In this document: one piece after another, positions 1,616-16,557 of the stretch
Layout: each line of letters starts with the position of its first letter
Position numbering within the stretch: the stretch's first letter is position 1
NCBI GenBank assembly: GCA_014860355.1
Contig: JACZJV010000039.1
Coordinates: forward strand, 1 to 36,060
Reading direction: 5' to 3'
Source: Burkholderiales bacterium
GTDB taxonomy: Bacteria > Pseudomonadota > Gammaproteobacteria > Burkholderiales > SG8-39
Length of the DNA stretch: 36,060 nt
Made by a program: the position numbers and the translations under genes
The notes under the pieces: generated by a model
Seen by the model: the letters and a program-made list of their open reading frames with translations, nothing else
What the model was told of the DNA's origin: nothing
Database searches by the model: none

Positions 1616-3049
1616 TTGAACCCGGAGCCGCTTTACCTCGCCATAGATCAAGGCACGCACGCCAGCCGCGCGGTGGTGCTGGATCGCTGCGGACGGGTGC
1701 TCGCGAGCGCTGCGCGCGAGCTCGGCCTCGCGCGGCCGCAGCCGGACTGGGCAGAACAGGACGGCGAGGAGATGGTGGAATCGATCTTGGCCGCCGCGAG
1801 GGAGGTAATTGCGTCGGTCGGCGCGGGCCGGCGCGCGGTGGTGGCTGCGGGCCTCGCCAGCCAGCGCTCGAGTTGCATCTGCTGGGACCGGCTCAGCGGC
1901 CGGCCGCTGTCGCCAGTGTTCAGCTGGCAGGACCGGCGCGCGCACCAGTGGCTGCGGCAGTTCGAGCCGCGCGGCGAAGAAGTGCACCGCAAGACCGGGC
2001 TGTTCCTGTCGGCGCATTACGGCGCGAGCAAGCTGCGCTGGGCGCTCGATCATCTTCCCGCGGTGCGCGAGGCGCGCGCCGCAGGCACGCTATGCTGGGG
2101 CCCGCAGGCGAGCTTTCTCGCGTTCCGGCTGCTGGACGAACGCCCCCTGATCGCCGATCCGCAGTGCGCGGCACGCACCCAGCTATGGAATCTGGGCACG
2201 CGGGACTGGGACCCGGAGCTGCTGGCGCTATTCGGCCTGCCCCAGGGTTTCCTGCCCGAGAGCGTTCCCACCTGCCGCCGCTTCGGCACGCTGCGGCTGG
2301 AGGACTGCGCGATACCGCTCACGGCGCTGAACGGCGACCAGTCGGCCGCGGTGTTCGCCTGCGGCTGGCCGGAGGTGGATTCCGCTTACGTCAACATCGG
2401 CACCAGCGCCTTTGTGCAGCGCGCGCTCACCCGGGATCCCGGCGATGTTCCACGCCTGCTCAGCGGCATCATCCTCGACGATGGTGAAACCACGGTGTAC
2501 ACGGTGGAGGGCAACGTCAACGGCGCCGGCACCGCGCTCGAGTGGCTGCGGCAGGAAATGGGCATAGCGGATCTGGACACGCGGCTGCCCCAATGGCTGG
2601 CGGCGCCGGACGAGCCGCCGCTGTTCCTGAACGGCGTCGCCGGACTCGGCGGCCCGTTCTGGCGGCCCGATTTCACCTCGCGCTTCATCGGCACGGGCGA
2701 GCCTGCACAAATGGCCGTGGCCGTGGTCGAGAGCATCGCCTTCCTGCTCCAGGCCAACATCGAAGAGATGGCAAAGTACCTGCCGCCGGCTGCGCGCATC
2801 CGGGTCAGCGGCGGAGTTTCGCAAATCGACGGTCTTTGCCGCAGACTCGCCGCACTCAGCGGGCTGCCCGTGCATCGTCGCGACGATGCCGAAGCGACCG
2901 CCCGCGGCATCGGCTACCTGGCGGCTGCGCGGCCGGCGACCTGGGACCATGCCGTCGCGGAAGAGGTTTTCGCGCCGGCCGCGGATGCGGCAATAAGGCT
3001 GCGTTACCGCCGCTGGCGCGCGTTGATGGCAGAGGCGACGGGAGTCTGA
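1616..3049 (+). CDS. FGGY-family carbohydrate kinase, glycerol-kinase-like
   Basis: 477 residues in the two-domain FGGY/actin-fold layout. The N-terminal phosphate-binding strand reads AIDQGTHASRAVV (residues 9-21). SWQDRRA, HYGASKLRWALD and NGDQSAA align with GlpK regions that hold the polyol and the catalytic Asp (GDQ). The second domain has NIGTSAFV and the late adenosine motif SGGVSQID. Compared with E. coli GlpK, the QRET segment reads QRSS, so the glutamate that contacts glycerol is replaced. The kinase may be a glycerol kinase with altered polyol binding or act on a related polyol. Its position next to glpAB argues for making glycerol-3-phosphate. The start is TTG at 1616 with no strong ribosome-binding site; no ATG gives a full N-terminus. 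It converges on the HdrB-like gene. Confidence 0.82.
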   Translation: MNPEPLYLAIDQGTHASRAVVLDRCGRVLASAARELGLARPQPDWAEQDGEEMVESILAAAREVIASVGAGRRAVVAAGLASQRSSCICWDRLSGRPLSPVFSWQDRRAHQWLRQFEPRGEEVHRKTGLFLSAHYGASKLRWALDHLPAVREARAAGTLCWGPQASFLAFRLLDERPLIADPQCAARTQLWNLGTRDWDPELLALFGLPQGFLPESVPTCRRFGTLRLEDCAIPLTALNGDQSAAVFACGWPEVDSAYVNIGTSAFVQRALTRDPGDVPRLLSGIILDDGETTVYTVEGNVNGAGTALEWLRQEMGIADLDTRLPQWLAAPDEPPLFLNGVAGLGGPFWRPDFTSRFIGTGEPAQMAVAVVESIAFLLQANIEEMAKYLPPAARIRVSGGVSQIDGLCRRLAALSGLPVHRRDDAEATARGIGYLAAARPATWDHAVAEEVFAPAADAAIRLRYRRWRALMAEATGV

Positions 3050-3095: not shown

Positions 3096-3902
3096 CTACA
3101 GTCCCAGGGATTTCGCGCTCAGGCCCAGCGCCAGCCCTAGCAACTGAGTGTAGAGCAAGACTGGGATAGCCGGGTCCGCAGCGCCCGCCGGAACGGCGTC
3201 GAAGCGCAGGTGGCAATGCGGGCAGACCGTGCAGATGGCTTGCGCACCGGACTCCAGCGCATCGCTGATCTTGCCTCGCGTCATGCTTGCGGCCAGCGGC
3301 CCGTTGGCTTCGTGCAGCGGATCGCCGCAGCAATCCAGCCGCCGCGGCCAATCCACCGGCGTCGCGCCGGTTGCGCGGATCAGCGTTTCGAATATCGTCG
3401 GCGCCATCGGGTTGTCCATCCGGGCCACATTGCTCGGCCGCAGCGCATGGCAGCCGTATTGCGCGGCGACACGCAGGCCGGTACGCGGAGCGCACACCGC
3501 AGCGGCCAGCGTATCCGCACCTATCTCGCGTGCCAGCAAGGGCAGCAAGTGCTCGACCGCCGTGTTCCCCGACCAGGTCAGGCGCTCGGCGGCAAGCGCC
3601 TGCTTCACGCGCAGGCGCAGTTCCGCATCCTCGTGCAAAAACCGGATCGCGTGCCGCAGGGTGCCAAAACAACAGGTACAAGGCGCCAGTACATCGAGGC
3701 CGGCTCGCTCGGCCAGAGCCAGATTGCGGGCCGCAGACAACACGAAAGCATCGCGGCTGACATTGCGCGCGGGATAGCCGCAGCAGTCGAATTCCAGGTC
3801 GACCAAGGTGACGCCCAGGCGCCCCAGCACGGCGCGCGCCGACAGCTCGTAGGCCGGCAGTCGTGACGGGATCTTGCATCCCAGGAACAGCGCGTACTTC
3901 AT
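3096..3902 (-). CDS. HdrB-like CCG-domain iron-sulfur protein (GlpC C-terminal half equivalent)
   Basis: 268 residues with two cysteine-rich CCG domains. The first is C9, C40-C41, C75 and C78; the second is C151, C191-C192, C224 and C227. This spacing matches the CX31-39CCX31-36CXXC pattern of HdrB, DsrK and the C-terminal part of GlpC, which hold non-cubane or 4Fe-4S clusters and act as electron-transfer partners. The true start is the ATG at 3900-3902, because the protein then begins MKYALFLGC like other HdrB proteins; upstream codons in this frame only read through the previous gene. That ATG overlaps the stop of the membrane cytochrome gene (ATGA), so the two are co-translated. As the last gene of the glpA-glpB operon it probably passes electrons between GlpAB and the membrane subunit. 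Residue 225 onward (CTVCPHCH) carries an extra cysteine, C230. Confidence 0.88.
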   Translation of the reverse strand: MKYALFLGCKIPSRLPAYELSARAVLGRLGVTLVDLEFDCCGYPARNVSRDAFVLSAARNLALAERAGLDVLAPCTCCFGTLRHAIRFLHEDAELRLRVKQALAAERLTWSGNTAVEHLLPLLAREIGADTLAAAVCAPRTGLRVAAQYGCHALRPSNVARMDNPMAPTIFETLIRATGATPVDWPRRLDCCGDPLHEANGPLAASMTRGKISDALESGAQAICTVCPHCHLRFDAVPAGAADPAIPVLLYTQLLGLALGLSAKSLGL

Positions 3903-5608
3903 GACCGGCCCCTGGTGCCGCGCACAGCGCCCAGGCGCTGCACCGCCAGCGCGCGCAACTCGCACATGATGTCGGTCACGCGCACCCGTTCCGGGCAGAT
4001 TTCCTGGCACTGGTAGCAGGTCGCGCAGTCCCAGACCATGCGCGAACCCAGGGCGAGGTCGCGCAGACCCAGCCGCAGCAGGTTCATCACCTTTTGCGGC
4101 GTCAGATCGACGCCATCCGCTTTTTCGATGCTGTGCGCCACGACCGGGCATACGTTGGTGCAGGTCTGGCACTGCACGCAACGCGAGAACGAATTTCGGT
4201 CGGCCGAGAGCGGAGCGCAAGCAGCGTCCGCGTCGGAAAAAGCGTGCAGCCCGCAACCCGACCCCAGAGACTCGGCCCAATCCAGGGCCGGCCGTTCCTG
4301 CACCCAATGCGCCGGCGCGGGTAGTCCAGCAGCGACCAGGTCGCCGCGCGCGGCCTGCCACAGATCCTCAAGATCCAGCCCCGCCGGGCAGCTGCTGGTA
4401 CAGCGTCCGCAGTCGGTGCAGAGGAAAGCCCCGTCCGCGGCCCGCAAGGCGTCGCTCTCGCGGCCTGGCCGCAACAGGCGACCATTCGCCAGAGCGGCGC
4501 TGGCAATGAGTTTGTGCGAAGGCAGCAGGCCGGCATTGCCCAGGTTGCGTGCCAAGGGTGCGACGGAACAGCGCGCGTCACAGATGCCGCAACGCACGCA
4601 GGCGTCTAGCGCCAGTGCCCGCTGCACAGCACGACCTGCGCTCGAGTACCCCCGATTCGTCGCCGCCGCATTCACCAGCAGGCTGAGCGGCACTGCCACA
4701 GCGTGAAAGAGGCGAGTGAACGGCAGGCTCGCCAGTCCGAGGAAACACGCGAACACGTGCAGGTACAGCAGCCAGACATCCGCGCGGGCGGCGTCCAGCA
4801 GACCGGTCACGGGCGCCAGCATCCGTGCGACTGGAAAGGACACGAAGGCAGATTCCGGCCGCGCGTGGCAGGATGCACAGGCGTCGCTGTGCAACTTGCG
4901 GCCTTGGGCCACCAGGCCCGGGTCGATCGGCGCCTTCAGATGGTCGAACGCCACTGCGAACTCGCTGGCCCAGAGGGCGCGCAGGGGCTCGAGTTCCTGC
5001 GCATCGCTATAGCCGACATAGCGTTCCGTCATGCGCTGGAAGGCGCGCGGAGATGCGATCTTGTGGCCCTCGAGCAGGAATCCCGTAAGGAGTACGAACC
5101 CAAGCAGCGCAATGAACACCATGCCCAGGGGACGGCGCGGCTGCGCCAGCCCAGGCTGGGGACGGCGTCGTCCAAAGTAGATCATTGCCACTCCGGCCAG
5201 GACCATCGCGCCGCAAAGGTCGCGCAGCAGGAGGTAGGGAGCCAGCGTAGGCTGGTAGCCCTGGAACAAGTTCGCGGTCACCAGCGGCGCGAGCGCGTGC
5301 ATCGATAGCAGCAGCGTGAACCCGACCAGGACCAGCAGATGCCCGAACCAGCGCAGTTTTTCGTGCGCAAACAGCCGGCGCAGGAGCAGCACGTCGAGAA
5401 AAAAAGCGCCTGCGAGGCCTAACAGATCGCGGCTGAAAAGCGCCGCGATGGTGCCGCGGTAGACTGCGGCCACGCGCTCAGAAAACGTGATCTCGCGCAC
5501 GTCCGGACCGATTCTGACCAGGAACCAGGCCGAGGCGCGCCATACGAGGCCCAGGGCGCACAGCGCCAGTGATGCGTAGAGTGCGGTCTGGAACAGGGCC
5601 TGCGACAT
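3899..5608 (-). CDS. Membrane NarI-like cytochrome b with c-type heme site fused to a duplicated HdrC ferredoxin domain
   Basis: 569 residues from the ATG at 5606-5608; longer frames upstream read into glpB. Hydrophobic segments lie near 7-30, 61-78, 88-108, 128-145, 163-180 and 278-298. Histidines in membrane context (H82, H90, H104, H284, H302) and the end LPFTRLFHAVAVPLS resemble NarI/DsrM, whose last helix ends on the cytoplasmic side beside a heme-b histidine. The loop 181-277 should then face the periplasm, and it contains CASCH at 244-248, a c-type heme site. The cytoplasmic tail has four CxxCxxCxxxC motifs (C337-347, C397-407, C477-487, C528-538), i.e. two HdrC-type ferredoxin pairs instead of the usual one. 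It probably takes electrons from GlpA/GlpB/HdrB-like proteins to quinone or a periplasmic acceptor. Topology and hemes are inferred from motifs. Confidence 0.85.
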   Translation of the reverse strand: MSQALFQTALYASLALCALGLVWRASAWFLVRIGPDVREITFSERVAAVYRGTIAALFSRDLLGLAGAFFLDVLLLRRLFAHEKLRWFGHLLVLVGFTLLLSMHALAPLVTANLFQGYQPTLAPYLLLRDLCGAMVLAGVAMIYFGRRRPQPGLAQPRRPLGMVFIALLGFVLLTGFLLEGHKIASPRAFQRMTERYVGYSDAQELEPLRALWASEFAVAFDHLKAPIDPGLVAQGRKLHSDACASCHARPESAFVSFPVARMLAPVTGLLDAARADVWLLYLHVFACFLGLASLPFTRLFHAVAVPLSLLVNAAATNRGYSSAGRAVQRALALDACVRCGICDARCSVAPLARNLGNAGLLPSHKLIASAALANGRLLRPGRESDALRAADGAFLCTDCGRCTSSCPAGLDLEDLWQAARGDLVAAGLPAPAHWVQERPALDWAESLGSGCGLHAFSDADAACAPLSADRNSFSRCVQCQTCTNVCPVVAHSIEKADGVDLTPQKVMNLLRLGLRDLALGSRMVWDCATCYQCQEICPERVRVTDIMCELRALAVQRLGAVRGTRGRS

Positions 5609-5615
5609 GTCCGTC

Positions 5616-6920
5616 CTACCCTGCCCCGACCCTGCGCAGCTGGCGCGCGACCTGCTCCACTGCCCCCCAGGCCGTGGCGATGGCCAGCCCCGAGCCGCAT
5701 TTCGCGCGCATCCAGTCCTGGTGCGCAAGAATGGAACCGGCTGCGAATAGCCGCGGCCACGCCGGTCTACCGGCAGCGTCCAGGGGCCGCCACGCGCTGT
5801 CGATCTCTAGCCCGGCGCGGTTGATCGCGTGGCCCGAGGGGTCGAGGAAGTCGCGCTGGTGCCAGGTCTCGCGCGAGTCCGGCTGGTGCACGGGCAAACC
5901 GAGGATGCTCTCGCGTACCTGTCCCCGATAAGCTGTGAGCCCGCGGCCGGTAAATCGCCCCGTGGCCAGCACCACGGCGCGGGCAACCACGCGCTCGCCG
6001 CCTTGTGCGCCGTCGAGTTCGAGCGTGGCCGGACCTGCGCCGGCGCTGAACACCAGCGCGCGCACGCTGGCCTGGTGGCGCCGACGGACGCCGAGCTTCG
6101 ACACTGCGGTTTCCAGTGCGCCGAGCAGCCGCAGTCCCGGCACCGATGTCGGCATGGTCGGGATTTCGAACACCGGCATGCCCAGCGCCTCCTCGAAGGC
6201 CGCGTGGACCTCGCCCGCACGCGCGAGGCCGAGTACCGCGGGAAATCCGACCGCACGCGCGTCGCCGAGCAGCGGCTTCACCAGATTGATCGTCCGCTCG
6301 CGCATCAGCCTCGATTCCAGGGCGCGGGCGAGGTGGGCGGCATACAACTCGGGCGCGGATTCGGCGCCCGGGAACTCGATGCGCTGATGCCGCAGCCCCG
6401 GCCAGCGCTCGCCCAGCGTCGCAACGATCTGGCGTGCGCTGAACTCGCGCAGCCCGCGAAAATCCACCAGTAGGCAGGGCGGCCGCGCCTCCAGCGCTGC
6501 GGCGCCGGCAATCATCGAGCGCGGCACGCCGAAGGTGGTCTTGACGGTCCCGATCGACGTGAGCACTTTCCGGTTGAACTCGCCCAGCGGAGCGTACCTT
6601 AGCCCGGCCGAGGCCAGGGCGGTGACGAAAGACTCAAACGCCGAGCGGATCGAAGCGACTGCTAGCCGCGCCATAGGATGCTCCGCCTGCTCGCGCGCGA
6701 GCAGCGCGAGAGCCTCGTAAGGGGATCGCCACAGGCGGCGCTCGGCGACAGGGTACACGCCCAGCAGATCGAGCAGGCCGCTCGCAAAAAGCAGGCTTCC
6801 GCCGTTGCCGATCTGTACGCAGCGCAGACCCCGTTGCGCGGCGAAAAGCGCCGCCGCCATGCCCGCCATCCCGGCGCCGATTACGGCGACGTCGCAACTG
6901 ATGCAGCTTGCATCCTTCAT
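5616..6920 (-). CDS. glpB: Anaerobic glycerol-3-phosphate dehydrogenase subunit B
   Basis: 434 residues from the ATG at 6918-6920, which overlaps the glpA stop as ATGA. A Rossmann dinucleotide-binding motif (VIGAGMAGMAA) starts at residue 13, and a flavin-site C-terminal region contains RLFAAGSILAHQDWM and GSGLAIATAWGAV. Length and order of blocks fit GlpB (about 420 residues in E. coli), the flavin subunit that links the GlpA active site to the iron-sulfur chain. The ORF can be extended upstream but the extension is Arg-rich shadow of glpA, so the internal ATG is preferred. It is followed after 7 bases by the membrane cytochrome gene, in the place where glpC follows in E. coli. Identity as GlpB rests on the motifs and on adjacency to glpA. 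Confidence 0.9.
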   Translation of the reverse strand: MKDASCISCDVAVIGAGMAGMAAALFAAQRGLRCVQIGNGGSLLFASGLLDLLGVYPVAERRLWRSPYEALALLAREQAEHPMARLAVASIRSAFESFVTALASAGLRYAPLGEFNRKVLTSIGTVKTTFGVPRSMIAGAAALEARPPCLLVDFRGLREFSARQIVATLGERWPGLRHQRIEFPGAESAPELYAAHLARALESRLMRERTINLVKPLLGDARAVGFPAVLGLARAGEVHAAFEEALGMPVFEIPTMPTSVPGLRLLGALETAVSKLGVRRRHQASVRALVFSAGAGPATLELDGAQGGERVVARAVVLATGRFTGRGLTAYRGQVRESILGLPVHQPDSRETWHQRDFLDPSGHAINRAGLEIDSAWRPLDAAGRPAWPRLFAAGSILAHQDWMRAKCGSGLAIATAWGAVEQVARQLRRVGAG

Positions 6921-8551
6921 CGCTGCGCCCTGCCCGCCGCGACCTGGCCCGGCGCATCGGGCAGGCCATCGTCCTGCAACTCCTCCCCGAACAGACCGCA
7001 ATGCAGGGCCTCCATCAATTCTGCCTGGGCCAGTTGCTCGCCCCACAGGACGGCGCGCTGGCCGCGCCAGCGCTCGCCGACGAAATCGAGAATTTCGGCG
7101 AGGCCGCGCGACCCCTGGAAGCCGCCGCCCTGGTACAGGTGGGCGGAGGTGCGCAGGGCGCAGAAAGCGCCCTGACAGGCGCCCTTGCCCACGCGGCTGC
7201 GCAAGCCGATGTCGGTCAATGTCGGCGTGTCGCCGGCCGCGCGCAGCGCCGCGTAGATGGCATCGACGGCGCTGCCCGACACCATCTCGCACTCGCACAG
7301 GAGCGGATCCTTCAGCCGCAGCGTACGCATCCACGCGCGCGGCGAGTGGCCCGGCTCCGTCCACGCGCATTCCGGGACTGCGGGCAGGGGCAGGGTCGCA
7401 GTGACGCAGGCTCGCGTCACGCCGAGTCGCCGGCAGACCAGGTCGGCCGCGCGCTCTGCCATCAAGCGACAGGTGGTGAGCTTGCCGCCGGTTATCGTTG
7501 CCAGGTTATCGAGACCCTGGTCCTCGTGATTGAACAAGGCGTAGCCGCGCGAGACCGCGCGAGCGTCCCTGCCGCCCGTTGCGCCCACCAGTGGACGCAC
7601 GCCCGCATACGCGCGTACGTAGCGCATCGCCGCCAGCGCCGGCAGCATGCGCGAGGCTTCCGCGACGATCAAGTCGGCCTCCAGCGTCGTCGGGCGGATG
7701 TCGTCCAGGGCGTCAACCCGAGTCGACGTGGTGCCGACGATGGAGACGGTGCCGCCCGGCATCATAATGTCGGCGTTGCCTGGCAGCCGCAGGCGGTTCA
7801 CCACGCGGCCGGCCAGACGGGTGTGCGTAACCAGCAGCGTACCCTTGGAATAGCTCATCTCGATCGGCGCTCCGGCGAGCAGCGCTACCTCCCGCGCCCA
7901 GGCTCCCGCAGCGTTGACGACCTGCGCCGCCTCGATGCGCTGCGCCTGTCCGCCGTTGCGGGACTGTAGCCGCACCGCACGGATCTGCCTGCCCTCGCGC
8001 TCGAAGCCGACGACGCGAGTGCGCCGCATCAGCCTCGCGCCCAGACTTTGCGCATGCGCCATGCTCTCCAGCGACAGACGGAACGGGTCGATCGAGGCGT
8101 CGGGCACCTCGAACACCGCGATGGTACGCGGCGAGAGCGCAGGTTCCAGCTCTCGTGCCAGGGCGACGTCCACGACCCGCGCGCTGATTCCCGACCGCGC
8201 GCAGCAAGACGGGAAGTCGGCGATGTAGCGTTCGTCGTCGCCTTGCACCGCGACGTAGTAGCCGCCGGTGTCCTGAATCGCCTGCTTGGCCATGCGCTTG
8301 AGGATGTCACCTTCGGAGCGGCAATCCACCGCTGCCTCGCGGTCGCCCGCGACGTAGCGTGCGCCGCTGTGGAGCAAGCCATGATTGCGCCCGGAGGCGC
8401 CGGCGTTGATGTCGTCCATCTCGACCAGGACGCAGTCTACGCCGCGCAGCGCGAGGTCACGGGCGAGCGCCGTGCCCGTTACGCCGCCTCCGATGATCAG
8501 GACCTGCGTCTGGACGGAAGACGCTGAGTTCAATTCTGCCTCTGCACGCAC
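6917..8551 (-). CDS. glpA: Anaerobic glycerol-3-phosphate dehydrogenase subunit A
   Basis: 544 residues, essentially the length of E. coli GlpA. The N-terminal FAD fold has VLIIGGGVTGTALARDLALRG at 18-37 (GxGxxG core), followed by the GlpA/GlpD block ending in GRNHGLLHSGARY. The C-terminal domain has four cysteines, C419, C421, C459 and C464, in the BFD-like [2Fe-2S] arrangement (CECE...GKGACQGAFC) that separates GlpA from aerobic GlpD. It oxidises sn-glycerol-3-phosphate to dihydroxyacetone phosphate at the cytoplasmic face of the membrane. The start is the GTG at 8549-8551; no ATG is available and the ribosome-binding site is weak. It is the first gene of the operon, and the divergent region upstream contains a perfect FNR-type box, in line with anaerobic control of glpACB in enterobacteria. 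Confidence 0.93.
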   Translation of the reverse strand: MRAEAELNSASSVQTQVLIIGGGVTGTALARDLALRGVDCVLVEMDDINAGASGRNHGLLHSGARYVAGDREAAVDCRSEGDILKRMAKQAIQDTGGYYVAVQGDDERYIADFPSCCARSGISARVVDVALARELEPALSPRTIAVFEVPDASIDPFRLSLESMAHAQSLGARLMRRTRVVGFEREGRQIRAVRLQSRNGGQAQRIEAAQVVNAAGAWAREVALLAGAPIEMSYSKGTLLVTHTRLAGRVVNRLRLPGNADIMMPGGTVSIVGTTSTRVDALDDIRPTTLEADLIVAEASRMLPALAAMRYVRAYAGVRPLVGATGGRDARAVSRGYALFNHEDQGLDNLATITGGKLTTCRLMAERAADLVCRRLGVTRACVTATLPLPAVPECAWTEPGHSPRAWMRTLRLKDPLLCECEMVSGSAVDAIYAALRAAGDTPTLTDIGLRSRVGKGACQGAFCALRTSAHLYQGGGFQGSRGLAEILDFVGERWRGQRAVLWGEQLAQAELMEALHCGLFGEELQDDGLPDAPGQVAAGRAQR

Positions 8552-8930: not shown

Positions 8931-10055
8931 GTGACCAAGCAGCTATTCAGGATCGCCGTCCTGCCGGGTGACGGTATAGGTTCCGAGGTGATGGATGCCT
9001 GCCTCGGGGTGCTGGAACGCCTGCTGGCGGACCAGCCGCGCTTTGGCCTCAGCTACATACACGCGGCGGGTGGTGCGCAGCACTACGCCGATACCGGGGT
9101 CGCCATGCCGGAGAGCACGCTGCGCGCCTGCGAAGACGCGGATGCCATACTGTTTGGCGCCATGGGCCTGCCCCATATCCGTTACCCCGACGGCACGGAA
9201 ATAAGTCCGCAACTGGATCTGCGCAAGGATCTGGACTTGTATGCCGGCGTGCGCCCCATCCGCGCCATCCCCGGCGTGCCTTCCGTATTGGCCGACCCGC
9301 GCGCCGCGCAGATAGATCTGGTCCTGGTTCGCGAGCAGTCCGAAGGTCTGTTCTATGGCCGCCTCTACCCCGAAAAGCAGCCGAAAGCGAACGACAGCGA
9401 AGCGTTCGATCTCGGACGCATATCGCGCAAGGCTTCCGAGCGCTTGTTCGATTTCGCCTTTCGTCTCGCACGCCGGCGCCGGGACGCCGACCCGGCGAAG
9501 GGGCAAGTCACCTGTGTAGACAAGGCCAACGTACTGAGCAGCATGGCGTTTTTCCATAAAGTCTATTGGGAGCGGGCCGAGCTCTACGCGGATATCCAGG
9601 CGAGCCACTGCTACGTCGATGCCATGGCCTTGAATCTGGTCAAGCGCCCCTGGGATTACGACGTGGTCCCGACCGAAAACCAGTTCGGTGACATCCTTTC
9701 AGACCTTGCCGCAGGATTGATAGGCGGCCTGGGTATGTCGCCCTCGGCAGATATCGGAGACGAGCACGGGCTGTTTCAGCCCAGCCATGGCACTGCGCCG
9801 GATATTGCCGGGATGGGCAAGGCCAACCCTACGGCCATGATCCTTTCAGCGGGATTGATGCTGGAGTGGCTGGGCGAAAAACACAGCCTGCCCGAGGCCT
9901 GTACCGAAGCGACCCGCCTCAGGCTAGCGGTGGACGCAGCCTTCGGCTCGGGCAATATTCGATCGGTAGAATCAGGCGGCCAGGACGGCACGCAGGCGAT
10001 AACGGCGGTCGTAATCGCAGCGCTGGCCAGGAATTCGGCGGGAACAGGAAGCTGA
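8931..10055 (+). CDS. Isocitrate/isopropylmalate dehydrogenase family beta-decarboxylating dehydrogenase
   Basis: 374 residues, GTG start at 8931. The family fold is clear: [10 protein letters not shown] at 11-20, a substrate-arginine block ([14 protein letters not shown]98 and R108), [11 protein letters not shown] with R134, catalytic VDKAN with K198, metal-binding D230, D254 and D258, and the cofactor loop [13 protein letters not shown] at 282-294. Enzymes of this family oxidise a 2-hydroxyacid at C2 and decarboxylate at C3 (3-isopropylmalate, isocitrate, tartrate or homoisocitrate). The segment that reads REXTGGIYFG in LeuB reads [10 protein letters not shown] here, closer to the tartrate/homoisocitrate side, so I do not call it LeuB. 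LeuC and LeuD homologues lie 5 kb away on the other strand. The FNR box upstream is unusual for leucine biosynthesis. Confidence 0.85.
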
Positions 10056-10101
10056 ACGGCAACAACCACTAATTCACTTTAATTTGTTTATGTATATAGT
10101 T

Positions 10102-10122
10102 GTTTATATGCATTATATAAAC
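10102..10122. repeat. AT-rich inverted repeat between convergent genes
   Basis: Perfect 7-bp arms (GTTTATA and TATAAAC) with a 7-base spacer sit inside a roughly 60-base AT-rich patch (about 10070-10130) in otherwise very GC-rich DNA, between the stops of two convergent genes. It may help end transcription, but there is no GC stem or T-run of a standard terminator. Confidence 0.4.
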
Positions 10123-10143
10123 TTCTATTTGCCCTGCAGCTGC

Positions 10144-11298
10144 TCAGGTTTCCTCCCTTTGATGGTGTATCGAGTTGCCTTCCTCCCCAAGCAACAAGGC
10201 ATTGTGCTCGCCCAGCAAGGGCGGCGGCCCGTATTCGCGTTGCGTGCCGGCGATCCTGATCGGATTGCCGACCGCGCGGATGGTGCCGGCCGCGCATTCG
10301 ATCGCAGCGACCATTTCGCGCTCGCGCACCAGGTCCGAGGCCAGCGCCTGTTCCAGCGATTCGATCGGCGCAACCACCACGCCCAGCGGCGCGAGGCGCG
10401 CGCTCCACGATGCGGTGGTGTCGCTTTTCAGCACCGGCTCGAGCGCGGCCAGCACTGCGCCGCGATTGCGGCTGCGCGCGGCCATGGTGGCGAAGCGCTC
10501 GTCCGCGAGCCAGTCCGGCCTGCCCGCCTCGTTGCAGAAGCGCCGCCAGAATTCGTCGTGCGAAATGAACACCACCAGCCAGCCGTCGCTGGTCTCGAAA
10601 ATCTGCGCCGGCACGATGTAGGGATGCGCCGAGCGCGGCATGCGTTCGGCGCGTTCGCCCGCGTTCAGCCAGGCGCCGGCAAGATAGTTCAGCTGCGAGA
10701 GCATCACGTCGTACATGGACAAGTCGATCTGGCCGCCCTTTCCATCGACGACTTTTGCCAGCAGGCCGAGCGCGCCCATCATTCCGGCTGAATTGTCCAC
10801 CGCCGAATAGCCGGTCTTGGCCGGCGGGCCGCCGGGCTCGCCGGTAATGGCCATCACGCCCGTCAGCGCCTGTATCACGTAGTCGTAGGCGGGCCGATCC
10901 GCATAGCTGCCCTCCAGGCCGTAGCCGGTGAGCGCGACGCACACCAGCTTCGGGTTCACTTCCCGCAACGCTGCGTAGTTGAGGCCCAGCTTCATGATCG
11001 CCGCCGGGCGCAGGTTGACGATCAGCGCGTGCGCGCGCGCGGCCAGCCGGCGCAATTTGCCCTGCCCCGCGGCCGAGGCCAGGTCGAGCACCACGCTCTT
11101 CTTGCTGCGGTTGAGGCTGGCGAAATAGGCGTTGTGCGGCCCGATCGAATGCGGGCTGACGCGCCGCGCGATATCGCCCTCGGGCGGTTCGATCTTGATG
11201 ACTTCGGCGCCGAGATCCGCGAGCAGCATGCCGCAGTACGGGCCCGCGAGCATGTGCCCGACTTCGAGGACGACGATGCCCGCGAGCGGCCCGTTCAT
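10144..11298 (-). CDS. Class III (CaiB/Frc-type) acyl-CoA transferase
   Basis: 384 residues, a full-length family III CoA-transferase. It opens with the typical GIVVLEVGHMLAGPYCGMLLADLGAEVIKIE-like block (residues 8-38, shown here only in part: LADLGAEVIKIEPPEGD), followed by LNRSKKSVVLDL. The block TGYSAVDNSAG (about 171-181) carries the aspartate expected to form the acyl anhydride with CoA. Such enzymes move CoA between carboxylic acids. The ATG at 11296-11298 overlaps the stop of the B12-binding subunit (ATGA), so it is translated with the mutase. By analogy with ScpC in the E. coli Sbm pathway it could recycle CoA from product to substrate acid; this is inference, and ScpC itself belongs to another CoA-transferase class. 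It is the last gene of the four-gene coupled block. Confidence 0.9.
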   Translation of the reverse strand: MNGPLAGIVVLEVGHMLAGPYCGMLLADLGAEVIKIEPPEGDIARRVSPHSIGPHNAYFASLNRSKKSVVLDLASAAGQGKLRRLAARAHALIVNLRPAAIMKLGLNYAALREVNPKLVCVALTGYGLEGSYADRPAYDYVIQALTGVMAITGEPGGPPAKTGYSAVDNSAGMMGALGLLAKVVDGKGGQIDLSMYDVMLSQLNYLAGAWLNAGERAERMPRSAHPYIVPAQIFETSDGWLVVFISHDEFWRRFCNEAGRPDWLADERFATMAARSRNRGAVLAALEPVLKSDTTASWSARLAPLGVVVAPIESLEQALASDLVREREMVAAIECAAGTIRAVGNPIRIAGTQREYGPPPLLGEHNALLLGEEGNSIHHQREET

Positions 11299-11711
11299 GC
11301 GAGCGCGAGCGCCAGTTCGTCTATCATCTGGGCAAGCGGCATGTCGTTGGTGTACACGCCCCTGACCCCGGCCGCCAGAAGTCCCGCCGCATCCTCCGGC
11401 GGAATGGTACCGCCGACGAACACCGGAATATCGCCCGCGCCCGCGGCCGCAAGGCCCTCGAGTACCTCGCGCGCAAGTTCCTTGTGGCTGCCCGAAAGTA
11501 TCGACAGGCCCACCGCCGAAACGTCCTCGTCCAGCGCCACGCGCACGATGAATTCCGGGGTCTTGCGCAGCCCGGTGTAGATCACCTCGGCTCCGGCGTC
11601 GCGCAGCGCCAGCGCGATCACCTTGGCGCCCGAATCGTGCCCGTCGAGCCCGGGCTTGGCGACGAGTATGCGCTTTCCCGCGAGCGGGCCTGCGCCGATG
11701 GCGGCGTTCAC
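11295..11711 (-). CDS. B12-binding small subunit of an acyl-CoA mutase
   Basis: 138 residues, a single cobalamin-binding domain. DGHDSG at 23-28 is the DxHxxG motif whose His25 becomes the lower cobalt ligand. S70-I-L72 and the glycine pair at 100-101 (FVGGTIP) complete the usual three-part B12 signature. It pairs with the upstream large subunit. A split of about 540 + 138 residues is the layout of 2-hydroxyisobutyryl-CoA mutase (HcmA/HcmB) and some archaeal and bacterial methylmalonyl-CoA mutases, rather than the single-chain MutB or Sbm. It overlaps both neighbours by ATGA-type junctions (11708-11711 upstream, 11295-11298 downstream), which should keep subunit amounts in step. Confidence 0.93.
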   Translation of the reverse strand: MNAAIGAGPLAGKRILVAKPGLDGHDSGAKVIALALRDAGAEVIYTGLRKTPEFIVRVALDEDVSAVGLSILSGSHKELAREVLEGLAAAGAGDIPVFVGGTIPPEDAAGLLAAGVRGVYTNDMPLAQMIDELALALA

Positions 11712-13324
11712 AGGCGCACCGGTTCCTGGAACTCGCCCCAGCAGCGCTTCAGGCGCTCCACCATTTCACCTACGGTCGCATACGCATGGCAGCATTCCAC
11801 CAGCAGCGGCATCAGATTCTGCTCGTCGTTCGCGGCCGCGGTTTCGAGCGCGCCGAGCGCGCGCTCGACGCGCGCCGCGTCGCGGCTGCGCTTCAATTCG
11901 GCGTGCTTGGCGAGCACGCGCCCGGCAATCTGCGGATCGAGCCGGAACACTTCGCCGTAGCTGTCGGCCTGCGCCTCGCGGCGGAACTGGTTTTGCCCGA
12001 CGACAACGCGCTCGCCCCGGTCGGTGGCGTCCTTCTTCTCGCGCGCGCGCTGGGCGATGCGCCGCTGCAGCCAGCCCTCCTCGATCGCTTTCACCACGCC
12101 GCCGTAGGCGTCGATCTCGCCCATCACCTCGCGCATCCCCTGCTCCATGCGCTCGGTGAGCCATTCGACGTAATAGCTGCCGCCCAGCGGATCGACCGTG
12201 GCCGCGATGCCGCTCTCGTGCTGCACGATCTGCTGCGTGCGCAGCGCGATCTCGGCCGAGAACTCGGTCGGAATCTGGAATGCCTCGTCGTAGGCGCAGG
12301 TGAATATCGACTGCGCCCCGCCGAGCACCGCCGCCAGATTCTCGATCGCCACGCGCACGATGTTGTTGTACGGTTGCGCCGCGACCAGCGAGGAGCCGCC
12401 GCACACCACGCCGAAGCGAAAATGCAGCGCCTTGTCGTCGGTGACCCCGTAGCGCTCGCGCAGCAGCCTCGCCCACAGCCGGCGGCCGGCGCGGAACTTC
12501 GCCGCCTCCTCGAACAGGTCCATGTGCGTGTAGAAGAAGAAGGACAGGCGACGCGCGAACCTGGTGAGGTCGCCGCCGCGGCGGATCAGCTCGTCTACGT
12601 AAGCAAGTCCGTTGGCCAGCGTATAGGCCATCTCCTCGATGGCGGTGCAGCCCGCGTCGCGCACGTGCGCGCCGGCGATCGAAATGGCGTTGAAGCGCGG
12701 CGACACCTCGTTCGAAAAGAGTACCGAGTCGGCGATCAGCCGCAGCGACGGGCGCACCGGAAAAATCCAGGTGCCGCGCGCGACGTATTCCTTGAGTATG
12801 TCGTTCTGGATGGTGCCGGTCAGTTTTTCGCGCGGCACGCCCTGCTTGTCGGCCGCGGCCAGGTACATGGCATAGATGATCGCCGCCGTGCCGTTGATGG
12901 TGAACGAAGTGGAAATCGCGCCCAGGTCTATGCCATCGAACAAGGTCTCCATCTCCGACAGGGAAAAGAGCGATACGCCCACCTTGCCGATTTCGGGACG
13001 CGCCATCGGGTCGTCCGGATCGTAGCCGCACTGGGTCGGCAGATCTAGCGCCACCGACAGCCCGGTCTGGCCCTGATCGAGAAGAAAGCGGTAGCGCTGG
13101 TTGGATTCCTCGGCCGAACCGAAGCCGGAATACTGGCGTATGGTCCAGGCGCGCCCGCGATAACCGTCGGCGAATATGCCGCGCGTGTACGGATACTGCG
13201 CCGGCAGCCCCGGATCCGATTCGGCCGCCATCTCGCGCGTCACCACCACCGGCACTTCGATCCCCGATGGCGTCACTGCACGCGTCTCGGGCCGCGGCGC
13301 GCCGGGCTTGGGTACTGCACTCAT
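11708..13324 (-). CDS. Adenosylcobalamin-dependent acyl-CoA mutase large subunit (methylmalonyl-CoA mutase-like)
   Basis: 538 residues from the ATG at 13322-13324, overlapping the crotonase stop. It is the TIM-barrel catalytic chain of a B12 carbon-skeleton mutase. With Propionibacterium MutB numbering offset by 24 the active site can be read. Conserved residues are R58 (R82), T61, R63, Y65 (Y89), S90, S140, T142, Q173 (Q197), R183 (R207), H220 (H244), R259 and S261. Y65 separates it from isobutyryl-CoA mutase (Phe) and 2-hydroxyisobutyryl-CoA mutase (Ile). It departs at F51 (Y75), G54 (M78) and A219 (Y243). The HSQTSGW and HTNALDE segments near the adenosyl group read GVVCGGS and FTCAYDE. 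The enzyme probably interconverts a branched and a linear CoA-ester with a carboxylate; the substrate is not fixed. No MeaB/ArgK-type chaperone or epimerase gene is nearby. Confidence 0.9.
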   Translation of the reverse strand: MSAVPKPGAPRPETRAVTPSGIEVPVVVTREMAAESDPGLPAQYPYTRGIFADGYRGRAWTIRQYSGFGSAEESNQRYRFLLDQGQTGLSVALDLPTQCGYDPDDPMARPEIGKVGVSLFSLSEMETLFDGIDLGAISTSFTINGTAAIIYAMYLAAADKQGVPREKLTGTIQNDILKEYVARGTWIFPVRPSLRLIADSVLFSNEVSPRFNAISIAGAHVRDAGCTAIEEMAYTLANGLAYVDELIRRGGDLTRFARRLSFFFYTHMDLFEEAAKFRAGRRLWARLLRERYGVTDDKALHFRFGVVCGGSSLVAAQPYNNIVRVAIENLAAVLGGAQSIFTCAYDEAFQIPTEFSAEIALRTQQIVQHESGIAATVDPLGGSYYVEWLTERMEQGMREVMGEIDAYGGVVKAIEEGWLQRRIAQRAREKKDATDRGERVVVGQNQFRREAQADSYGEVFRLDPQIAGRVLAKHAELKRSRDAARVERALGALETAAANDEQNLMPLLVECCHAYATVGEMVERLKRCWGEFQEPVRL

Positions 13325-14097
13325 TTCTTCGTCTCCTTGCTCAGTATATCGGCCGCCGCCCGCCAGTGATCCGCGTGGCACCACGCCGCTGCAAACAGAT
13401 CGCGATCGCGCGGGTCGGCGAGTTCGCGCGCCATGCCCAGTTTGCGCGCCGCTGCCTGCCACTTGAAGGCACGCATCACCTGCGGCCGCTGCTGCATCCA
13501 GGGACCGATGAACCGCTCGACGAAAGCGGCGAACGATACGCCCTCGGGCGCGACGGCCTCGACCAGCCCCGCGGCGAGCGCTTCGGACGCCGACAGCACG
13601 CGCGCGCTGCACAAAAGCTCCAGGCCGCGCGCCGGACCGAGTATCGCGGCAAGATCGCTGCCGCCGCCCCAGGCCGTGGGAATGTTGAGCGTGCCCTGCA
13701 CGAAGCCGATGCGCGCGTGCGCCGCGGCGATGCGCAGATCGCAGGCCACCGCCAACTCCGCGCCGCCGCCCAGCGCGACCCCGTTCAGAGCCGCCACCAC
13801 CGGAACGCCGAAGCTCCGGATGGCCTGAAACGCGCCGTTGCCCAGATCGAACAAGGCGCGCGCCTGCTCCACTGTGCGCACTTGCTCCAGGTCACGCAGA
13901 TCCCCGCCGGCGGCGAAACTCCTGTCGCCCGCGCCGCAGATCAGCGCCAGCACGAGCGTGTCGTTGTCGCGCTGCTCTTCGAATACCTGCTGCAGCTGCG
14001 CGAGCACGGCGCGCGACAGTGGATTGCGCTTCTCCGGCCGGTTGATGGTGACCCGAAGCAGGCCGTCCTCGACCGAGGCAAGAAGGTCGGAACTCAC
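13321..14097 (-). CDS. Crotonase-fold protein (enoyl-CoA hydratase or acyl-malonyl-CoA decarboxylase type)
   Basis: 258 residues with the crotonase oxyanion-hole segments FAAGGDL (61-67) and GVALGGGAELAVACD (106-120). E114 corresponds to Glu144 of rat enoyl-CoA hydratase. The second catalytic glutamate (Glu164) falls on Q134 (GFVQGTLNIP), so simple hydratase chemistry is doubtful. E. coli methylmalonyl-CoA decarboxylase ScpB also lacks the second glutamate, which, with the mutase gene next door, makes a decarboxylase a reasonable alternative. It is the first gene of the coupled block: its stop overlaps the mutase ATG at 13321-13324. The dodecin stop lies 46 bases upstream of its start, so the flavin-storage gene may share the transcript. 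Confidence 0.85.
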   Translation of the reverse strand: MSSDLLASVEDGLLRVTINRPEKRNPLSRAVLAQLQQVFEEQRDNDTLVLALICGAGDRSFAAGGDLRDLEQVRTVEQARALFDLGNGAFQAIRSFGVPVVAALNGVALGGGAELAVACDLRIAAAHARIGFVQGTLNIPTAWGGGSDLAAILGPARGLELLCSARVLSASEALAAGLVEAVAPEGVSFAAFVERFIGPWMQQRPQVMRAFKWQAAARKLGMARELADPRDRDLFAAAWCHADHWRAAADILSKETKK

Positions 14098-14143
14098 CGC
14101 CTTGCCTCGATCGGCCTGCGCCGGCGCGTGCCTGCGGGCAGCC

Positions 14144-14362
14144 TCAAGCCTCGTACTTGAACGACAGCGATACGCGCGTGCGGAACGCGGTCACCTTGCC
14201 ATTCTCGACCTTCATGTCGGTCTTGATCACTTCGGCCACGCGCAGGTCGCGCAGCGACTTGGAGGCGACCTCCACCGCCTTTCTGCCTGCGTCCTCCCAT
14301 GAATCCTTGCTGATTCCGACCACCTCGACGATTTTGTAGACCCCGCTTTTTTCCTTAGCCAT
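14144..14362 (-). CDS. Dodecin family flavin-binding protein
   Basis: 72 residues from the ATG at 14360-14362, preceded by a strong AAGGAGG site (14367-14375 region, reverse strand). The sequence shows the dodecin pattern: YKIVEVVGISKDSWEDA, AVEVASKSLRDLRVAEVI and a C-terminal strand RTRVSLSFKYE. Dodecins form hollow dodecamers that store or buffer flavins and sometimes CoA. A longer upstream extension in frame has no second start signal and is rejected. It sits between leuD and the crotonase gene. Confidence 0.93.
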   Translation of the reverse strand: MAKEKSGVYKIVEVVGISKDSWEDAGRKAVEVASKSLRDLRVAEVIKTDMKVENGKVTAFRTRVSLSFKYEA

Positions 14363-14512
14363 CTCGCCCTCCTTGGTTGGTGGCCCCGCCGCCCGCCCGG
14401 GTGCCGGGGAGATTTCATGATACACCTGCCTGCTGCGGGAACCGAATGCGCACCACCCGCATAGGCAGCGGCAGAACCCGACCCCTCGGCAGTCAGCTCG
14501 CGGGGCAGCGTC

Positions 14513-15127
14513 TCAGGTGTACAACCAGGGACGGGCATCGCGATCGCTGCGCTGGAATGCTGCGATTTCAGTCTCATGCCGCAGCGTGATACCGATCTCG
14601 TCCAGGCCCTCCTGCAGCATCGTGCGGCGCAGGGCTTCGACCTCGAAGGCGATTTCCTCGCCTTTGGCGGTGACGATCCGCTGGCGTTCGAGATCGACCG
14701 TCAGCAGCGCATCGCGCGCATCGGCTTCGGCGCCTGCCGCCAATCGCTCAACGGTGGCCGCCGCGAGGCGGATCGGGAGCATACCGTTCTGAAAACAGTT
14801 GCCGAAGAATATATCGCCGAAGGAAGGCGCGATGACGCACTTCAGTCCCCAGCCCATCAGCGCCCAAACTGCATTTTCACGCGAGGAGCCACAGCCGAAA
14901 TTCTCCGCCGCGAGCAGGATCTTCGCACCACGGTAAGGCGGCTTGTTGAGGATGAATTCCGGCTTTTCGCTGCCGTCCGCGTTGAAGCGCATCGTCTCCA
15001 GCAGGTACTCGCCCTGGCGTTCGCGCGGGACGCCGGCGCAGCGCTCGATGCGTATGATCCGGTCGGTATCGATATTGGGCAGCATCAGCGGCGCCGCGAT
15101 GCCTTGCAGCAGGGTGAACTTCTCCAT
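14513..15127 (-). CDS. leuD: 3-isopropylmalate dehydratase small subunit family
   Basis: 204 residues. LPNIDTDRIIRIERC (about 16-30) is the LeuD/aconitase swivel-domain signature, followed by ENFGCGSSRENAVWAL and APSFGDIFFGNCFQNGMLPI, all expected of the isopropylmalate isomerase small subunit. With LeuC it moves the hydroxyl group of 2-isopropylmalate to give 3-isopropylmalate. The ATG at 15125-15127 overlaps the leuC stop by one base (TGATG), a typical coupled pair; a TTG one codon upstream is possible. The family also contains citramalate and other alkylmalate isomerases, so leucine biosynthesis is likely but not proved. Confidence 0.92.
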   Translation of the reverse strand: MEKFTLLQGIAAPLMLPNIDTDRIIRIERCAGVPRERQGEYLLETMRFNADGSEKPEFILNKPPYRGAKILLAAENFGCGSSRENAVWALMGWGLKCVIAPSFGDIFFGNCFQNGMLPIRLAAATVERLAAGAEADARDALLTVDLERQRIVTAKGEEIAFEVEALRRTMLQEGLDEIGITLRHETEIAAFQRSDRDARPWLYT

Positions 15128-16557
15128 CAATGATCTTCCCCTGGCGTACGCCGCACATCGGTAATCACGCCGGCGATCGCCGCAGCCGCCGCCATGGCCG
15201 GACTGGCAAGATGGGTGCGCGCCCCCGGACCCTGCCGGCCGACGAAATTGCGGTTCGAGGTGGACACGCAGCGCTCACCCGGCCCGACCAGTTCCCCATT
15301 CGCACCGACGCATAGCGAGCAACCCGGTTCGCGCCACTCGAAACCGGCGGCGCGGAAGATCCGGTCCAGTCCCTCGGCTTCGGCCGCGCGCTTCACCCCC
15401 TGCGACCCGGGCACGACCCAGGCGCGCACATGCGCCGCGACCTTGCGCCCGCGCACCACCTTCGCCGCGCTGCGCAAGTCGGAAATGCGGCTGTTGGTGC
15501 ACGAACCGATGAATACCCAGTCCACTTTGGTGCCGGCGATCGGCCGGCCCGGAACCAGGCCCATGTATTCGAGCGCAGCGCGCATCGCCTGCCTGCGCTC
15601 GCCGTCGGCGGCGCTGGCGGGATCCGGTATCATGCCGTCGACCGCAATCACATCCTGCGGGCTGGTGCCCCAGGTGATCTGCGGGCGGATTTTATCCGCA
15701 TCGATTTCGATTTCGCGCTCGAAAACCGCGTCCGCATCGGAGCTGAACGAGCGCCAATACCGTAGTGCGCGCTCCCAGTGTTCGGCCTTCGGCGCGTAGG
15801 ACCTGCCCTGCAGGTAGGCGGCCGTCCTGTCGTCGGGCGCGATCATGCCGAATTTCGCGCCCAACTCGATCGACAGATTGCACAGGGTGAGCCGGCCTTC
15901 GACTTCCAGAGCGCGGATCGCGCTGCCGGCGTATTCAACCGCATAACCTGCACCGGCGGCGGTACCCAGCTTGCCGATTGCGTGCAGGATCAGGTCTTTC
16001 GCCTCGACGCCCGGACCGGGCCTGCCCTCGAAGCGTATGCGCATGCGCTGCGGCTTTCTCTGCACCACGGTCTGGGTGGCGAGCACGTGCACTCCTTCTG
16101 ATGCACCGATGCCCCAGGCTAGCGCGCCGAGCGCGCCATGGGTGCTGGTATGGCTGTCGCCGACCAGCACCAGCATGCCCGGCTGGGTAATGCCCAGCTC
16201 CGGGCCGATCACATGCGCAATGCCCTGGCCCTCGTCGTTGACATCAAACAGTTTGATGCGATGGGTCTTGCTGCCGGCGCGAAGTTCGGCGAGCAGCGAC
16301 GCGCTCCAGCTCGCGTGGCCGCCGCTGCGTCCGGGCTCGGTCGACACGACGTGATCGGCGACGCAGAAAGTCATTTCCGGATTGCGCACCGGCAGCCCGC
16401 GCGCGGCGAGCAGACCGAACTCGGGGCTGTGCATGTCAGTGAAAAAATGACGGTCGACGTGCAGCAGCGCTACCCCCGGGGCGAGCTCGGCCACGACATG
16501 CCGGTCCCAGAGTTTGTCGAACAGCGTTCTGGCAGCCATCTTGTCCTTGGAGTTCAT
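15127..16557 (-). CDS. leuC: 3-isopropylmalate dehydratase large subunit family
   Basis: 476 residues with the three cluster cysteines of LeuC/aconitase: C353 in GSCTNSR, and C413 and C416 in PGCSLCVGAN. Upstream blocks VGDSHTSTHGALGALAWGIGASEGVHVL and CVADHVVSTE are typical, here shown as positions about 132-158 and 65-74. It binds a 4Fe-4S cluster that activates the substrate hydroxyl. The start at 16557 gives MNSKDKM; the internal ATG six codons later (MAARTLFDKLWDRHVV) is the start seen in most LeuC proteins and is equally possible. It is followed directly by leuD. There is no leuA and no clear leuB in the pair's own transcript. Confidence 0.92.
   Translation of the reverse strand: MNSKDKMAARTLFDKLWDRHVVAELAPGVALLHVDRHFFTDMHSPEFGLLAARGLPVRNPEMTFCVADHVVSTEPGRSGGHASWSASLLAELRAGSKTHRIKLFDVNDEGQGIAHVIGPELGITQPGMLVLVGDSHTSTHGALGALAWGIGASEGVHVLATQTVVQRKPQRMRIRFEGRPGPGVEAKDLILHAIGKLGTAAGAGYAVEYAGSAIRALEVEGRLTLCNLSIELGAKFGMIAPDDRTAAYLQGRSYAPKAEHWERALRYWRSFSSDADAVFEREIEIDADKIRPQITWGTSPQDVIAVDGMIPDPASAADGERRQAMRAALEYMGLVPGRPIAGTKVDWVFIGSCTNSRISDLRSAAKVVRGRKVAAHVRAWVVPGSQGVKRAAEAEGLDRIFRAAGFEWREPGCSLCVGANGELVGPGERCVSTSNRNFVGRQGPGARTHLASPAMAAAAAIAGVITDVRRTPGEDH

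Follow-up and report, generated by a model that had tools for sequence, protein, structure and literature searches.

We describe here a four-gene unit in which glpA and glpB, encoding a glycerol-3-phosphate (G3P) dehydrogenase, are followed not by glpC but by the genes for a membrane cytochrome b/c and for a separate HdrB-like protein. The unit lies in a stretch of 36,060 nucleotides from a Burkholderiales bacterium (SG8-39; assembly GCA_014860355.1, contig JACZJV010000039.1, positions 1–36,060, forward strand), hereafter the window, where glpA, glpB, the cytochrome gene and hdrB are arranged head to tail on the minus strand at 3096–8551 (Table 1). Our preferred reading, to which we give a probability of about 0.64, is that these genes encode a membrane-bound G3P dehydrogenase of the GlpAB kind, in which an EtfD/HdrF-like electron wire spread over two genes takes the place of the third subunit, with ubiquinone as the most likely acceptor. 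An earlier note on the window had given the coordinates and the gene junctions (ATGA overlaps at glpA-glpB and at cytochrome-hdrB, 7 bases between glpB and the cytochrome gene), and these were confirmed as first given. It had also described a membrane protein with NarI-type histidines, a CASCH site and four 4Fe-4S motifs, together with a separate HdrB-like CCG protein; all of these features were seen again, and their ligands are invariant in nine homologues.

The gene order is conserved wherever the complete cytochrome was found. A scan with six peptide patterns, run on one genome per species to find close relatives of the cytochrome, yielded 10 loci, 7 of them full-length (64–74% identity). 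When 98 genomes of the family were searched, 72 had matches, almost always to single ferredoxin stretches; full-length cytochromes came from 5, the window's own genome included. Loci L016–L018, which match single ferredoxin stretches of the cytochrome only, were left out of the counts, and repeats were counted once: L022 is L010 (the wider stretch L117 being 100% identical), and L020 and L021, with all match values equal to those of L009 and L011, were treated as the same loci. In every one of the nine distinct genomes with a full-length cytochrome, the window's among them, the four genes follow one another in the order glpA-glpB-cytochrome-hdrB on a single strand, which bears out the conserved neighbourhood that the earlier note had suggested looking for and rules out a coincidental one. 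Because the relatives include Rhodoferax and Burkholderiaceae, the unit extends beyond a single genus. It is rare: among 399 genomes of the order, two gave it at E 1e-30, namely the window's own and another from its genus (three candidates were scored per genome).

Conservation within the cytochrome falls on the residues expected to hold its cofactors. Across the nine homologues, 227 of the 569 positions of the window protein are invariant, including 6 of its 13 histidines (residues 90, 104, 248, 284, 302 and 492), five of which are the four membrane histidines (H90, H104, H284 and H302) and the histidine of the CxxCH motif. Likewise, 20 of the 24 cysteines are invariant, among them the two of CxxCH and every one of the 16 in the four CX2CX2CX3C motifs, and this pattern of invariance among the cofactor-ligand histidines and cysteines is more than chance. 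The family scan placed two dicluster ferredoxin regions in the protein (Fer4_8 and Fer4_17). The second HdrC-like domain is of the HdrC dicluster type, as judged from its match to an HdrC of known structure (PDB 5odc_C, E 2.8e-11), and scores 61.7 bits with TIGR03290, below the equivalog cut-off of 160.

The likeness to NarI lies in the N-terminal part. Alone, the N-terminal 325 residues score 23.5 with Nitrate_red_gam, over the cut-off of 22.9, whereas the whole cytochrome, at 21.3, stays under it; the match covers residues 279–314, and the N-terminal parts of all nine homologues are matched at E up to 0.1. H284 and H302 stand 18 residues apart, and the stretch that holds them aligns with the final helix of E. 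coli NarI, in which a histidine pair has the same spacing (H187 and H205, both heme ligands). H90 and H104 are 14 residues apart, against 10 in NarI, and lie on a strongly hydrophobic segment. A hydropathy scan gave five segments, near residues 4–27, 85–110, 126–144, 157–179 and 280–303, and the stretches between them hold on average 9.8 Lys+Arg in 57 residues, 1.0 in 15, 4.0 in 12 and 11.0 in 100. With the ferredoxin domains in the cytoplasm, the positive-inside rule would place the 100-residue loop that carries CxxCH outside; besides its Lys+Arg, this loop holds a mean of 12.8 acidic residues. Matches to CcmF occur in the window's genome, in pieces across several contigs. No convincing match to the N-terminal part was found in the PDB, and a search for it in 349 genomes of the phylum turned up, beyond the window's own genome, nothing but a single stretch of 35 residues. 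A search of plasmids gave no match.

The hdrB product, with two CCG stretches (80.4 bits), is of the HdrB kind. It matches HdrB in the PDB at E 1.5e-49, and scores 200.5 bits with methanogen HdrB (TIGR03288, the family of the CoB-CoM heterodisulfide reductase; below the equivalog cut-off of 345.15), 152.6 with SdhE and 17.7 with GlpC. Its ten cluster cysteines (C9, C40, C41, C75 and C78; C151, C191, C192, C227 and C230) align with those of solved HdrB and are invariant in the nine homologues, as are C77 and C224, and the five solved HdrB sequences compared have a glycine at the position of C77. In the mycobacterial protein EtfD, according to the available parts of its description (PMC13083937), cluster D1 is bound by Cys503, 538, 581 and 584, Thr539 stands for one of the Hdr cysteines, and an added ligand, His583, inside that CXXC completes cluster D2 and renders it non-catalytic. 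C77 occupies the motif position of His583, a comparison that rests on motif spacing because EtfD was not matched by the HdrB profile in the PDB search. By analogy, C77 suggests closed, electron-transfer clusters rather than disulfide chemistry.

GlpA exceeds one curated cut-off in the family scan (NCBIfam PRK11101, 479.5 bits versus 425) and falls slightly under another (TIGR03377, 539 versus 552.8), and GlpB exceeds two (NF003725, 539.7 versus 345; TIGR03378, 195.1 versus 174.15). The four Bfd-like cysteines of GlpA (Table 1) are present in all 20 of the GlpA sequences compared, a 21st row, L073, having been set aside beforehand. In the GlpA tree (21 rows) and the GlpB tree (19 rows; L113 stands in the GlpA tree only), the four-gene loci cluster together and separately from the rows of the DsrK and GlpC types; support is 94/96, slightly under the tool's star, for GlpA and 96/98 for GlpB. 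L069 was assigned to the DsrK-type group in these trees although it has no DsrK-type neighbour.

The earlier note had seen in this layout a GlpC that was split and rebuilt on a respiratory scaffold. The unit has no GlpC subunit (the cytochrome scores 55.3 bits with PRK11168, cut-off 278), and a literal split is disfavoured by the bit scores, which favour HdrB and HdrC over GlpC (for the hdrB product, 200.5 versus 17.7). The same note had counted a normal glpC elsewhere that serves GlpAB as speaking against its view; no protein of the window's genome is over the TIGR03379 cut-off (best 170.8 versus 279.9). Judged on sequence, replacement of GlpC fits better than its splitting, and the unit looks assembled from Hdr parts; we favour this view because of the HdrB-like scores and because the sister GlpAB is paired with an HmcF/TmcB/DsrK-like protein. 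This pairing, in the order DsrK-like-glpA-glpB, is found in L110–L113, of the same genus, and in L070 and L071, of another family of the same phylum; the partner, 429–439 residues long where complete, is encoded upstream of glpA and comes without a membrane part and without a cytochrome. The partners scanned, in L110, L111, L112 and L070, have HmcF, TmcB and DsrK as their best families, all below cut-off, and L113 and L071 were assigned to the DsrK type by tblastn to the ferredoxin part only. L069, the third locus of that other family, has no such neighbour. Within the genus, the DsrK/HdrD-like-glpA-glpB arrangement occurs in 4 of 14 genomes and the four-gene unit in 5; none of the 14 was found to have both, which is weak evidence given that many are incomplete and that G018, one of the four, is cut by a contig end. 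The window's genome also holds a 1028-residue HdrA2-like protein encoded beside a 420-residue CCG/ferredoxin protein similar to TfrB (L119, G000:C52).

Since the window's genome has a normal GlpD (764 bits against a cut-off of 360, which is exceeded in 13 of the 14 genomes of the genus), the unit would provide a second route for G3P. No MenD over cut-off (11 weaker matches) and no match to the MqnA/D family was found in this genome, and for this reason ubiquinone is assumed as the quinone and menaquinone is considered unlikely. We infer that the four proteins form a complex with a quinone site, in which GlpA would oxidize G3P to dihydroxyacetone phosphate (DHAP) in the cytoplasm. From flavin adenine dinucleotide (FAD), electrons would then reach the two noncubane clusters of HdrB by way of GlpA's Bfd-like iron-sulphur centre and the flavin of GlpB, and pass onwards through the second and then the first HdrC-like domain to two b hemes, one held by H90/H302 on the cytoplasmic side and the other by H104/H284 on the outer side. 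Ubiquinone would be the most likely acceptor, and a heme c outside the cytoplasm, in the loop that precedes the final membrane helix, may offer a second exit to a periplasmic cytochrome. The functional idea of a G3P dehydrogenase with a membrane cytochrome is plausible and is supported by gene context. For the direct G3P:quinone or periplasmic cytochrome oxidoreductase of the earlier note, the NarI-type and heme-c features and the adjoining G3P genes speak in favour, whereas direct reduction of either acceptor is a step that we infer.

Several observations weigh against this picture. When the N-terminal part was compared with a single NarI by hhalign, the probability was 10.8% and a different NarI region was aligned, so that the relation to NarI rests mainly on the last helix; an AlphaFold2 model of the cytochrome with the nine homologues had a mean predicted local distance difference test score (pLDDT) of 37 and was set aside. 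No quinone site was identified. The heme-c region is short and is matched only weakly by cytochrome c families (Cytochrome_CBB3 in 3 of 9, E up to 0.1; PDB 3vrd_A, E 0.025), and the loop holds no conserved methionine C-terminal to CxxCH; the invariant M193 is a candidate distal ligand for heme c. The tree tool issued a long-branch warning for the joins between the outgroup and the other rows. Lastly, the best GlpC candidate, a GlpC-like protein of 442 residues encoded elsewhere in the genome (L118, G000:C150:88456-89784; PRK11168 241.3 versus 278), could in principle serve GlpAB; its gene is not near glpAB, and we disfavour it as the missing partner because it is below both GlpC cut-offs and directly follows an open reading frame (ORF) named, by reading, as rubrerythrin-like.

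Table 1. Genes and features of the four-gene unit and its neighbour, in window coordinates
Feature	Position	Strand	Description
glpA	6917..8551	minus	544 aa; catalytic subunit of an FAD-dependent G3P dehydrogenase; Bfd-like set of C-terminal cysteines C419, C421, C459, C464
glpB	5616..6920	minus	434 aa; flavoprotein subunit; ATGA overlap with glpA
Membrane cytochrome b/c, two HdrC-like dicluster domains	3899..5608	minus	569 aa; starts 7 bases after glpB
hdrB	3096..3902	minus	268 aa; two CCG domains; ATGA overlap with cytochrome gene
CASCH heme-c attachment motif	4865..4879	minus	cytochrome residues 244–248; loop predicted periplasmic
NarI-like last membrane segment	4676..4777	minus	cytochrome residues 278–311; H284 and H302
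First HdrC-like dicluster domain	4373..4600	minus	residues 337–412; Fer4_8 match 334–411; 8 invariant Cys
Second HdrC-like dicluster domain	3989..4180	minus	residues 477–540; TIGR03290 match 476–558; 8 invariant Cys
glpK-like glycerol kinase	1616..3049	plus	convergent with four-gene unit; FGGY_N and FGGY_C

The glpK-like gene scores 255.6 bits with TIGR01311, below the cut-off of 590.35. In L012 and L116 a relative of this gene lies directly 3' of hdrB in the same orientation, and in L010 glpK is about 6 kb away on the opposite strand. The genes that come after the unit in L014 are ugpB, ugpA, ugpE and ugpC, each above its NCBIfam cut-off. L009, L010 and L011 have in common downstream genes of an ATP-binding cassette (ABC) transporter of uncertain specificity; in L010 (10668-16284) a solute-binding protein, an ABC ATPase and a PhnU2-like double permease are encoded 3' of hdrB and then a PhoU_div (DUF47) protein, the first of these genes being common to the three loci as far as the compared stretches reach. 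In L015 (3059-4795) an octaheme cytochrome (seven CxxCH and one CMSCK) is encoded divergently from glpA at about 300 bases; it scores 114 bits with the family of ammonia-forming nitrite reductases, against a cut-off of 595. Further along the window, 8931–16557 holds genes for an isopropylmalate/homoisocitrate-type dehydrogenase and a CaiB-type coenzyme A (CoA) transferase, together with ORFs resembling, by reading alone, a split methylmalonyl-CoA mutase, an enoyl-CoA hydratase and LeuCD, which is possibly an organic-acid degradation cluster.

Three other functions have to be set against a ubiquinone-reducing G3P dehydrogenase. The unit might mainly be a transmembrane G3P:cytochrome c oxidoreductase, with heme c as the exit by which electrons reach a carrier in the periplasm, past the quinone pool; we regard this as unlikely. 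The CxxCH motif is invariant in all nine, in a predicted periplasmic loop that precedes the helix with the outer-heme ligand H284, the genome has its CcmF matches, and the octaheme, nitrite-reductase-like gene of L015 lies close to glpA; however, that gene stands beside one of nine loci only (the flanks of the others being annotated in part), and the unit has no cytochrome c gene of its own and a short heme-c region. Only tentatively, and as something rather unlikely, do we propose that electrons cross the membrane via HdrB, the two HdrC modules, the two b hemes and heme c to periplasmic cytochromes such as an octaheme nitrite reductase, beside or instead of the ubiquinone pool, with GlpD kept for ordinary respiration.

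A different function for the cytochrome-HdrB pair, as a disulfide reductase or other module whose adjacency to glpAB would reflect co-regulation and not a complex, seems to us quite improbable. The HdrB protein does keep all ten Hdr cluster cysteines, unlike EtfD with its Thr539 and added His583 (PMC13083937, in the parts available), and the noncubane clusters of Hdr act on disulfides, but order and close spacing are kept in nine of nine, a full-length cytochrome without glpAB never turned up in the searches made, and the invariant C77 at the position of His583 would suggest closed clusters. That electrons run backwards, from quinol or a cytochrome to DHAP, to make G3P for lipid synthesis is very improbable: such wires are reversible in principle, and GlpD is there for the forward reaction, yet the adjoining glpK and ugpBAEC of the relatives supply G3P, and reduction of DHAP by ubiquinol would be uphill by the redox potentials.

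On this reading, a single genus couples GlpAB to two kinds of electron partner, either a cytochrome with HdrB or a DsrK/HdrD-like protein. If confirmed, HdrB-type clusters would serve glycerol-phosphate respiration where the menaquinone genes searched for are missing, and a small conserved unit would be at hand in which to study how EtfD/HdrF-like wires deliver electrons to hemes, to quinone and possibly to the periplasm.

Compared with known systems, the unit shares its parts with several and its composition with none that we found described: (i) E. coli GlpABC has the same GlpA and GlpB families and an iron-sulphur third subunit with ferredoxin and CCG parts, whereas the unit has no GlpC but a NarI-like cytochrome, with a doubled HdrC and a heme-c site, and a separate HdrB, and the menaquinone genes searched for (MenD, MqnA/D) are absent from the window's genome. 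(ii) The DsrK-like-glpA-glpB operons (L110–L113, L070 and L071) belong to the same GlpAB branch and have an iron-sulphur partner of the HdrD kind, unlike the unit in its size, its place upstream of glpA and its want of a membrane part and a cytochrome. (iii) DsrMK and HdrDE, as the unit does, pair a CCG iron-sulphur protein with a cytochrome b of the NarI kind, but their soluble subunit is a fusion of HdrC with HdrB and the substrates are others.

(iv) The earlier note knew of no described GlpABC of this composition, which goes too far, for glpAB with a membrane Hdr partner was reported from Desulfobacterium autotrophicum HRM2 in 2009. There, in the available parts of the report (PMC2702500), hdrF1 and hdrF2, coding for proteins that have membrane helices as well as HdrC and HdrB domains, cluster with glpAB, and hdrF3 with etfAB; of the arrangements in print that we found, this comes closest to the unit. 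HdrF1/F1' is encoded by two genes according to a supplement legend, and HdrF1 may be split much as HdrB is a separate gene in the unit (PMC2702500, in part). HdrF1 and HdrF2 thus resemble the unit in joining glpAB to a membrane protein with HdrC and HdrB, in their case with up to six membrane helices, and differ in clustering with dicarboxylate transporters and in belonging to a sulfate reducer; the parts of the paper available (PMC2702500) speak neither of heme c nor of a doubled HdrC, and the unit is set apart from HdrF by description, not by sequence. Our literature search, which left subscription papers mostly outside its coverage, found no description of a glpA-glpB-cytochrome-hdrB unit among the matches listed. 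What seems to be new is the occurrence with glpAB, in betaproteobacteria, of a doubled HdrC region, a heme-c site and an HdrB that stands free.

(v) EtfD of mycobacteria resembles the cytochrome and HdrB taken together, with five membrane helices, a b heme, cubanes and two CCG clusters that lead from a soluble flavoprotein to quinone; as far as the available parts of the source go (PMC13083937), it is a single chain that passes electrons from the electron transfer flavoprotein (ETF), its donor, to menaquinone, with one b heme and two cubanes besides the CCG clusters on the way, whereas the unit has ligands for two b hemes and four cubane motifs, and where the EtfD/HdrF type unites NarI-like, HdrC and HdrB parts in one chain, the unit keeps HdrB as a gene of its own.

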